64,000 nt of DNA from Chlorogloea purpurea SAG 13.99 (GTDB lineage Bacteria; Cyanobacteriota; Cyanobacteriia; Cyanobacteriales; Microcystaceae): positions 1-64,000 of the forward strand of contig JADQBB010000001.1 of the NCBI GenBank assembly GCA_016903695.1, in the 5' to 3' direction. The stretch's first letter is position 1, and each line of letters opens with the position of its first letter. Of this stretch, positions 34,828-58,265 are shown piece after piece. Both the position numbers and the translations under genes were made by a program. Under the pieces are notes generated by a model. It did no database searches. It saw nothing but the letters and a program-made list of their open reading frames with translations, and had not been told where the DNA came from.

Positions 34828-34881
34828 TTGAGCGGAGGGGGTTCTAACTCCTACCCTCAAATCGTAGAAAACTGGAGTAAA

Positions 34882-35028
34882 TCATTGAAAGTTAACGTTC
34901 GGGGAAGCTCCCCTAATTAGCTCCCTGACTGCTTCGCTCATCGTTAACCCGACACTTGCGGCATATTGCGATAACTTTTCCCGTTCATAGTTATTTAACC
35001 TGACCTGTAGCCTGTAATCTCTATCCAT
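34882..35028 (-). CDS. Ribbon-helix-helix DNA-binding protein
   Basis: A 48-residue protein starting MDRDYRLQVRLNNYEREKLSQYA, followed by GLTMSEAVRELIRG. This is a CopG/Arc-type ribbon-helix-helix: one beta strand (residues 5-11) and two helices. Such proteins bind DNA as dimers. It diverges from tnpB with only 28 bp between start codons, so it overlaps the tnpB promoter and may repress it (inference). An in-frame extension to 35112 would run into tnpB. Confidence 0.75.
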   Translation of the reverse strand: MDRDYRLQVRLNNYEREKLSQYAASVGLTMSEAVRELIRGASPNVNFQ

Positions 35029-35044
35029 ACTGTCAAACGTGAGG

Positions 35045-35050
35045 TATAAT
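35045..35050 (+). promoter_or_regulatory. -10 box of tnpB (TATAAT), leaderless mRNA likely
   Basis: A consensus TATAAT ends 6 bp before the tnpB ATG at 35057, so transcription would start at about the ATG. The same bases read as TATTAT-like on the other strand, 17 bp from the RHH start, allowing a shared bidirectional core. No good -35 box was seen. Confidence 0.5.
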
Positions 35051-35056
35051 AGCATC

Positions 35057-36229
35057 ATGGTAACATTACTCGGATTCAAAACGCAACTAAGGTTAAATAA
35101 CGCACAGCGCACCTTGTTGGCACAGCATAGCGGCGTTGCGCGCCACGCTTATAACTGGGGATTAGGTTTAACAAAAGCTATCCTCGATAATAATAAGTTG
35201 AATCCACAAGATAAAATTAAATTCCCCACCGCTATTGACCTACATAAATGGTTGGTTGCAATGGTGAAACCGAAGAATCCTTGGTACTATGAAGTCAGTA
35301 AATGCGCCCCTCAATACGCATTGAGAGCGTTACGGGAAGCGTGGGACAGATGTTTCAAAAATATTGGAGGTGCGCCCCGATTCAAGAAGAAAGGTAAAAA
35401 CGATAGTTTCACTCTTGATGGTTTGATAAAACTTGAGTCGAGAAGGATAAAAGTACCCGTTATAGGTTGGTTAAAAACCTATGAGACTTTACCGACTGGC
35501 TTCACACCTAAATCGATAACGATAAGCCGAACTGCAGACCGTTGGTTTATCAGTTTTAAGATAGAAGCGCATCTTCAAGAAACACCTAAAGTCGTGGATG
35601 TAGTAGGCTGCGACCTTGGGGTTAAGCGACTCGTAACTTTAAGTACGGGCGAGACTTTCGAGGGTAGCAAGTCCTATAAAAAGTACGAAGCAAAATTATC
35701 AAGATTACAGTGGCTAAATCGCCGCAAGAAGAAAGGTTCAAATAACGACAAGAAAGCCCAAGTTAAAATAGCCCGACTACATAGAAAAATAGCCAACATC
35801 CGTAAGGATACCCTGCATAAAATAACCACTTATATCGCCAAAAACCACGGCGAGATAGTGAGAGAAGATTTGAATGTAAGGGGCATGATGGCTAACCATA
35901 AACTAGCTAAGTCTATAGGGAACATGGGTTTTTACGAGTTCCGCCGGCAGTTAACTTACAAATGCGAATTATATGGCTCTAAGTTGACGGTGGTGGATAG
36001 ATGGTTCCCGAGTAGTAAAACCTGTTCCAATTGTGGGCAGAAAAAAGACTCTTTATTATTAAGTGCAAGAGTCTTCTCTTGCAATTGCGGCATTAGTTTA
36101 GACAGAGATTTGAACGCCAGTTTAGTTCTAGCTAAGGCGGGGAGTTGCCCCGTGACAGCCTGTGGAGTGGATAGAGCCGACTCTACCACAATGAAGCAGG
36201 AAGTGGACTCTCAACCTTCGGGTTGTTAA
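35057..36229 (+). CDS. tnpB: RNA-guided endonuclease TnpB
   Basis: A 390-residue IS200/IS605-family TnpB, ancestor-type relative of Cas12 that is guided by an RNA from the element's right end. The RuvC residues are intact: D186 (VGCDLGVKRLV), E270 (VREDLNV) and the Asp pair in LDRDLNAS (349-351). The zinc finger is C323-x2-C326 and C342-x-C344. The N-terminal KTQLRLNNAQRTLLAQHSGVARHAYNW is the usual start region. The reading frame is full length, so it is probably active. ATG at 35057 is favoured over GTG at 35039, which lies upstream of the -10 box. Confidence 0.94.
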   Translation: MVTLLGFKTQLRLNNAQRTLLAQHSGVARHAYNWGLGLTKAILDNNKLNPQDKIKFPTAIDLHKWLVAMVKPKNPWYYEVSKCAPQYALRALREAWDRCFKNIGGAPRFKKKGKNDSFTLDGLIKLESRRIKVPVIGWLKTYETLPTGFTPKSITISRTADRWFISFKIEAHLQETPKVVDVVGCDLGVKRLVTLSTGETFEGSKSYKKYEAKLSRLQWLNRRKKKGSNNDKKAQVKIARLHRKIANIRKDTLHKITTYIAKNHGEIVREDLNVRGMMANHKLAKSIGNMGFYEFRRQLTYKCELYGSKLTVVDRWFPSSKTCSNCGQKKDSLLLSARVFSCNCGISLDRDLNASLVLAKAGSCPVTACGVDRADSTTMKQEVDSQPSGC

Positions 36230-36252
36230 AGTAGAGAATTTCGATTTTCTAC
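36212..36252 (+). ncRNA. Right-end hairpins, probable 3' part of the TnpB guide RNA
   Basis: Two hairpins overlap the tnpB stop: CAACC-TTCG-GGTTG (36212-36225, a UUCG tetraloop) and GTAGAGAA...TTTTCTAC (36231-36252, 8-bp stem). In characterised elements the omega RNA scaffold spans the tnpB 3' end and right end, with the guide immediately after it. The 5' and 3' limits here are unknown. Confidence 0.45.
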
Positions 36253-36384
36253 AGTTTCACGTAACGGCCGGTAAAATCCATGACCTATTCAAGGAAGGTT
36301 TTTTGGGTAATAAAAGATTAAGCGAGTATCAAGACTCGATCGCGCGAAAACTTCTTGAAAAACCGAGGAATAAAATTTCAGACA

Positions 36385-37648: not shown

Positions 37649-39357
37649 CAAAATAAGAAATAACGTTGGGCCATCGGTAATACAGTCGCTGGCTCACAGG
37701 TTAATAACTCTCCATCGGCTTTAACTTCATAAGTTTCCGGGTTAACCTCCATCACGGGTAAAGCGTTATTTAACTTCATCTGCGCCTTGGTTAATTCCCT
37801 TGTATTACTCACGGCTACCGCCTTTTTCCTCAAACCCAAACGCTCAGGAATATTACCCTTCATAGCGGCTTTAGAGAGGAAAGTCAGACAGGTGGAGTCG
37901 ATCGCACCCCCGTAACTGCCGAACATCGGACGCATATACACGGGCCCCGGTGTGGGTATACTAGCGTTAGCATCGCCCATCTGGGCCCAAGCGATCAAAC
38001 CGCCTTTAATCACTAATTCCGGCTTCACCCCGAAAAAGGCGGGTTTCCACAGGCACAAATCCGCCAGTTTGCCCTCTTCGATCGAACCCACATAATCAGC
38101 GATGCCGTGGGTGATAGCGGGATTGATAGTGATCTTGGCTATATATCTTTTCGCCCGGAAATTATCATTGTCTCCGGTTTCCAGGGACAATTTACCCCTC
38201 TGTACCTTCATCTTATGGGCGGTTTGCCAGGTGCGAATAATGACTTCGCCCACGCGCCCCATCGCCTGGGAATCGGAAGAAATCATACTGAAGGCTCCCA
38301 AGTCGTGTAGAATATCTTCGGCGGCGATCGTTTCTCTCCTGATCCTCGACTCCGCGAAAGCCACATCTTCGGGGATGGATCGATCGAGGTGATGGCACAC
38401 CATCAACATATCCAGATGTTCTTCTAAAGTATTAACGGTATAGGGGCGAGTGGGATTAGTAGAAGAAGGTAACACATTCGCTTCGCCGCACACCTTGATA
38501 ATATCCGGTGCGTGGCCGCCCCCCGCCCCCTCGGTATGATAGGTGTGGATGACGCGATTTTTAAAAGCGGCGATAGTAGCTTCCACGAAACCCGCCTCGT
38601 TGAGAGTATCCGTGTGGATGGCTACCTGCACATCGTATTTATCCGCCACGCTCAAACAAGTATCGATACTCGCCGGAGTCGTGCCCCAGTCTTCATGAAG
38701 TTTTAAACCCATCGCCCCCGCTTTAATTTGTTCTTCTAAACCCGACGGCTGGCTGCTATTGCCTTTGCCGAGAAAGCCCAGATTAACCGGGAAAGCGTCG
38801 GCGGCTTGTAGCATCCGGTGTAGATTCCATTCTCCGGGGGTGCAGGTGGTGGCGTTGGTGCCCGTGGCCGGGCCCGTGCCGCCCCCTATCATGGTGGTGA
38901 TGCCAGATGCGATCGCCGTCTCGATCTGTTGCGGGCAGATAAAATGTATATGGGTATCGATGCCCCCCGCCGTGACGATCATTCCCTCCCCCGCGATTAC
39001 TTCTGTGCCGGGGCCGATAATGATACTCACGTTATCTTGTACGTGAGGATTGCCCGCCTTCCCGATTTTGGCAATCTTGCCGTTTTTAATACCTATATCG
39101 GCTTTAACTATCCCCCACCAATCCAATATCAGCGCGTTGGTGATGACTAAATCCACCGCGCCCCCTTCCCTGGATATGGGAGATTGCCCCATACCGTCAC
39201 GGATTACCTTCCCGCCACCGAATTTCACTTCGTCTCCATAGGTGGTGTAATCTTTTTCCACTTCGATGATCAATTCTGTATCCGCGAGGCGCACTTTATC
39301 GCCTACCGTGGGGCCGTAGGTTTCAGCGTAAGTGCGACGATCGATTCTGTAACTCAT
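37648..39357 (-). CDS. ureC: Urease subunit alpha
   Basis: Catalytic subunit of nickel urease, hydrolysing urea to ammonia and carbamate. The start [27 protein letters not shown] at 39357 is the family start and gives 569 residues, the usual length. Ligands are visible: HIHFICPQ (first Ni pair), [10 protein letters not shown] (the carbamylated Lys), [12 protein letters not shown] and [14 protein letters not shown] (other Ni His) and VCHHLDR (catalytic His). ureA, ureB and the accessory genes are absent nearby, as is common in cyanobacteria where urease genes are scattered. It follows aroB by 32 bp. Confidence 0.97.
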
Positions 39358-58196: not shown

Positions 58197-58265
58197 AGGA
58201 AACCGCCCGAACATCGCCCGGACGGAGTGTGGTGTGAGGAGTGAGCGAAGATTTTACTCTCCGCT
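58197..58265 (-). ncRNA. yfr1: Yfr1 small regulatory RNA
   Basis: Read on the minus strand: GCGGAGA-GTAAAA-TCTTCGC forms a 5' hairpin (58258-58264 with 58245-58251). Next comes an unpaired stretch with CACTCCTCACACC, the invariant Yfr1 core. A CCGTCCGG...TTCGGGCGG stem and a short T-run end it. The location upstream of trxA matches the conserved place of Yfr1. Known Yfr1 controls mRNAs of outer-membrane proteins through that single-stranded core. The exact ends are inferred from the promoter and the terminator hairpin. Confidence 0.85.

Follow-up and report, generated by a model that had tools for sequence, protein, structure and literature searches.

In the 64,000-nucleotide stretch of the Chlorogloea purpurea SAG 13.99 genome analyzed here (contig JADQBB010000001.1, positions 1 to 64,000; hereafter the window), a small insertion sequence carries a tnpB gene and, divergently oriented at an ATG-to-ATG distance of 28 bp, a gene for a short ribbon-helix-helix (RHH) protein. 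Comparison with other loci makes it probable that this is an IS607-like element lacking TnpA, in which a leaderless tnpB is placed under a divergent, autorepressing RHH protein and for which TnpA is supplied in trans. Judged from sequence comparison, RHH control of tnpB together with its leaderless expression is well supported, and the pattern extends well beyond the window, to distantly related copies. The RHH gene (48 aa) occupies 34882-35028 on the minus strand, with its start codon at 35026-35028 and its stop at 34882-34884, and tnpB (390 aa) occupies 35057-36229 on the plus strand, from the ATG at 35057 to the stop at 36227-36229. The tnpB −10 box TATAAT (35045-35050, plus strand) is followed by AGCATC and the predicted transcription start at 35057. 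The initial annotation had given the same 28-bp distance and the same TATAAT 6 bp before the ATG, and on re-reading these coordinates agree.

Evidence for the leaderless start comes from the spacing of this box. After removal of near-identical upstream regions, 86 of 141 tnpB starts were kept, 27 with a divergent RHH gene and 59 without. TANNNT was found exactly 6 nt before the ATG in 24 of the 27 non-redundant RHH-paired starts, the exceptions being loci L025, L172 and L201, and every other spacing from 0 to 10 nt occurred in only 0-4 of them. The same TANNNT-N6 arrangement was present at 11/59 tnpB starts without RHH and at 19 of 383 control open reading frames (ORFs; other ORFs of the same loci), so that, compared with these controls, the box at spacing 6 in RHH-paired starts goes beyond chance. 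The six bases between box and ATG are variable while the spacing is fixed, and the same junction recurs in L098, L100 and L105, whose TnpBs are 28-31% identical to that of the window. Because the spacing holds even for TnpBs this distant, the best reading is a leaderless tnpB in the window, with transcription predicted to start at the ATG, which backs what had been proposed for this gene at the outset. A GAGG at 35041-35044 was considered as a Shine-Dalgarno sequence and ruled out, its columns not being conserved in relatives.

The junction also contains a candidate operator. The aligned loci show an approximate TGTAC-N11-GTACA in columns −29 to −9 relative to the ATG, and its right arm runs into the −10 box; in the window, the predicted operator region (35026-35050, no strand assigned) overlaps the start codon of the RHH gene as well as the −10 box of tnpB. 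In a set of 20 loci with at most 70% similarity, complementarity peaked at centre −19 (0.487, compared with 0.21-0.43 at other centres). Arm matches within loci amounted to 97/180, against a permutation mean of 81.6 between loci (reached by 4 of 20000 permutations), and for columns mostly outside the box to 37/80, against a mean of 25.9 (16 of 20000). The RHH protein would bind a dyad lying over the −10 box and shortly before the rhh start codon, and would repress both tnpB and itself.

Several observations weigh against this scheme and have to be set beside it. The dyad centre was picked after the column table had been viewed, and the copy in the window has a weak dyad (3/12 pairs), which implies that the operator there would be weaker or different. 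L201, one of the exceptions to the 6-nt spacing, shows a Shine-Dalgarno-like sequence. In a later set gathered with a broader RHH profile, which gave nine new, readable junctions, the N6 spacing was found at three (L250, L257, L259), and the six exceptions belong to two subfamilies (L254 and L262; L260, L264, L265 and L266). In the second of these the box precedes the start by about 24-26 nt, and the dyad-to-box geometry looks unchanged by eye. Moreover, the junctions are related by descent and the counts given above are not independent events. Taking the later set into account, leaderless tnpB would be common, not universal, in RHH pairs.

Could tnpB have a leader after all, with TATAAT belonging to the operator or just reflecting AT-richness and the actual promoter located further upstream, inside rhh? 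The subfamily that keeps the box yet starts tnpB some two dozen nucleotides downstream speaks for it, as does the lack of a visible −35 consensus at the expected place in the aligned columns. We consider it unlikely, since the spacing is exact in so many starts while the intervening bases vary, and since 9 of the 11 RHH-less tnpB starts with N6 spacing use TAAAAT, indicating that the box persists where the GTAC dyad is absent.

The RHH frame is itself conserved. Among relatives, the ratio of nonsynonymous to synonymous substitution rates (dN/dS) was 0.04-0.54 for the pairs computed; by this measure the RHH gene is under purifying selection, and the possibility of a chance antisense frame was ruled out on the same values. 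Pfam matches were weak and under the cut-offs (NikA-like, the best, at 3.3e-5; RHH_1 at 0.04). The AlphaFold model, with a mean predicted local distance difference test score (pLDDT) of 83, contains two helices, the strand not being called; its best PDB matches are mostly RHH proteins, CopG and NikA among them, at Foldseek E values of 0.3 or worse throughout. No second RHH copy was detected in the genome of the window at E ≤ 1.

Cyanobacterial genomes were searched in two ways, one TnpB-selected and one RHH-selected. In the RHH-selected search, 90 of the matches listed were inspected (30 plus 60 further rows), and 46 of these have a divergent tnpB no more than 130 nt away. In the TnpB-selected search a divergent RHH gene was present at 10 of 67 non-redundant junctions, nine of the ten having the box at spacing 6. 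These comparisons, in which the frame is conserved, selected and divergent from tnpB, bear out two expectations of the initial annotation, that the gene would be conserved beside other tnpBs and that it is placed to control tnpB. Counting against the proposed control of tnpB, 44 of the 90 matches have no adjacent tnpB; of 42 RHH loci without tnpB in the stretch, few have a divergent neighbour of at least 100 aa. Four tnpB-less RHH genes (L164, L168, L202, L204) have inverted repeats just 5′ of their own start by eye, as if autoregulated.

A plasmid search returned 27 records, and among the eight matches viewed all three TnpB-adjacent RHH matches read TACAAT-N6-ATG; plasmid locus L206 and L161 appear to be one and the same stretch. 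No RHH match was found in phage records, and the two RHH loci of a viral-contig scan had no divergent tnpB. In L206, L207 and L211 the RHH gene is absent from the annotation tables, and the annotated tnpB start is too far downstream in L206 and too far upstream in L207; public annotation thus sometimes misses RHH genes or misplaces tnpB starts. Other layouts were also seen. In L076 and L134 both genes are on one strand, with RHH 5′ of tnpB and its end overlapping the start of tnpB. A second layout in L036, L041, L065, L201 and L212 combines a divergent small gene, a gap of about 51-59 nt and, ahead of the nuclease start, an AGGTCG common to these loci. L212 (L212:47-2126) is from a Microcystis aeruginosa NIES-2481 plasmid, in which the divergent RHH gene adjoins c2c8, and this c2c8 has a GAGG-type leader instead of the leaderless box.

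The initial annotation had drawn the element too small, at 34882-36252. Homology of ends to L005, L014 and L092, copies in which identity is lost at about −200 and +1196 relative to the tnpB ATG, places the whole TnpA-less element at about 34840-36267 on the plus strand. On the left, GG precedes the boundary and TTCTAACT follows it, the exact position being ambiguous inside a G run (34836-34841); the right end, assigned to 36230-36267 on the plus strand, closes in AACGG. These ends fit the pattern of the IS607-like group, in which GG at the left and CGG at the right were seen by eye in 13/13 copies viewed; hairpin ends of the IS605 type occur in further RHH-tnpB elements. Between −200 and +1196, copies L092 and L094 share 99.2% identity, with unrelated sequence on either side, which places the RHH gene inside the mobile unit. 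The ORF list shows no tnpA within the element of the window, and because the serine-recombinase tnpA is absent, we refer to the element as IS607-like and not as a member of IS607. Two full-length IS607-type TnpAs are encoded elsewhere in the genome (a 3.16-Mb draft of 78.6% completeness), and transposition would proceed via an IS607-type TnpA acting in trans. The absence of TnpA had previously been taken as a sign that the nuclease may have been retained for some other use; with TnpA-less relatives that move and TnpAs that could act in trans, domestication of the nuclease is unnecessary as an explanation.

Given the mobility of these units, the RHH protein could instead have a role in transposition, either as a binder of transposon ends or as a regulator of the trans-acting TnpA, its proximity to tnpB being incidental. 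Relaxosome accessory proteins are found among RHH proteins and the best Pfam match, although below cut-off, is NikA-like; furthermore, the RHH gene occupies the place where TnpA is missing. We regard this as distinctly unlikely, as the conserved dyad is located, with constant offset, at the −10 box of tnpB, and the RHH gene pairs with two types of ends, IS607-like and IS605 hairpin, which are moved by different enzymes.

RHH binding might in principle activate instead of repress. That the RHH protein is an activator or a regulator responsive to host signals, and not a simple repressor, is the least probable alternative: a promoter without a recognisable −35 box would suit it, as regulators of the MerR type, which sit between −35 and −10, can act as activators, but the dyad extends over the −10 hexamer itself, and known RHH proteins at sites of this kind are mostly repressors. 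In addition, the analogously placed CvkR acts as a repressor in the accessible part of its description (PMC9938897).

The TnpB of the window matches guided_TnpB (NCBIfam, 8.5e-90, cut-off passed) and contains OrfB_IS605, TNB and HTH domains. The initial annotation had called the RuvC residues D186, E270 and D349/351 intact. In the alignment of RHH-paired TnpBs, D186 and E270 are invariant (33/33) and D351 is present in 32/33, the remaining one being an alignment gap, whereas D349 is not conserved, so that D351 is the third catalytic residue. The protein is up to 72% identical to TnpBs of tandem tnpA-tnpB elements. A probable guide RNA scaffold at 36159-36202 on the plus strand (L001:2860-2903) is a weak RAGATH-18 match of 30.3 bits, below the gathering score of 44.9, and relative L014 has a likewise weak match; RAGATH-18 RNAs are reported as the guide RNAs of IS607 TnpBs in the available portion of PMC11061315. 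The leaderless tnpB mRNA would also end in the guide RNA scaffold. Where the element is already resident, nuclease and guide RNA may be kept low, and on entry into an RHH-less cell a burst of both may follow; these two steps are speculative. Elsewhere in the window, Rfam matches to the 5′ ureB small RNA and to Yfr1 were obtained at 38916-39202 and 58201-58264.

RHH-paired leaderless TnpBs are scattered across the TnpB tree (support values not considered). L176 and L194 have RHH proteins that are 85% alike and TnpBs that are 28% alike; for the window and L005 the values are 29% and 74%. For 28 loci, the RHH and TnpB identity matrices were only weakly correlated, with a Mantel r of 0.18 that 146 of 5000 permutations reached. 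Since the RHH gene travels within the mobile unit and is found beside unrelated TnpBs, it would be simplest to suppose that TnpB lineages exchange the segment made up of RHH and promoter. A more far-reaching version is possible, though we hold it only tentatively: rhh, dyad and leaderless tnpB start might form a cassette that passes between unrelated TnpB lineages and two types of ends and serves as an entry switch, the burst in an RHH-less cell depending on a leaderless mRNA with few host requirements and being silenced as RHH accumulates, with the divergent cas12k and c2c8 regulators as parallel or derived versions.

In the literature searched, control of TnpB nucleases in insertion sequences is little described, and the recurrent divergent RHH gene beside tnpB suggests a built-in off-switch for the nuclease. 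A repressor cassette that recurs beside tnpB and is apparently exchanged among unrelated TnpBs makes TnpB control testable. It also links TnpB borne by insertion sequences to the leaderless, divergently regulated cas12k of CRISPR-associated transposons (CASTs). No account of the RHH-tnpB pair, or of RHH proteins in cyanobacterial insertion sequences, was found in a search that lay outside most subscription papers and preprints.

Among known systems, autorepressors of the CopG/Arc type are short RHH proteins with a dyad operator over their own control region, as predicted for the RHH protein of the window, whose target, in contrast, would be an RNA-guided nuclease of an insertion sequence. IS1341-type elements of IS200/IS605 consist of tnpB without tnpA. 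The element of the window shares this lack of tnpA, and some RHH-tnpB relatives share IS605-type hairpin ends, but its own ends are IS607-like and it has a regulator gene in addition. With the IS607 family, whose targets have GG at the element boundaries in the accessible text of PMC6188088, it shares closely related TnpBs and the weak RAGATH-18 match, and its boundaries as read are consistent with GG; it differs in lacking tnpA, in its divergent rhh, and in a tnpB that would have its own promoter and does not overlap tnpA.

By analogy, the closest precedent is provided by the CvkR/Arc regulators (Arc_1/Arc_2) of leaderless cas12k in cyanobacterial type V-K CASTs. The accessible part of PMC9938897 describes cas12k and cvkR as leaderless and CvkR as repressing cas12k from a divergent gene, and reports that in other CASTs Arc-like RHH genes, predicted repressors, precede cas12k and point the opposite way. 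Of 120 genomes, 31 contained Cas12k, and at the 20 loci taken for inspection the divergent neighbour was, by eye, MerR-like in 13 and Arc-like in two (L217, L220). TANNNT-N6 occurred at 1/18 cas12k loci with a readable start (L230). The two Arc-like proteins scored 4-5 bits with the RHH profile, below inclusion; on these two proteins common descent with the CAST regulators was not found, and the RHH-tnpB pair resembles the CAST design without detectably belonging to the same RHH family. The genome of the window also encodes Cas12k (G000:C2:107092-109095; L235), near which a divergent 58-aa RHH-like ORF was noted by eye (L235:3751-3927). As far as the available CAST description goes, the two systems would thus share one kind of design, a leaderless effector with a divergent regulator, the effector here being not Cas12k but a TnpB whose RuvC residues are intact and which is encoded by an insertion sequence of 1.4 kb.
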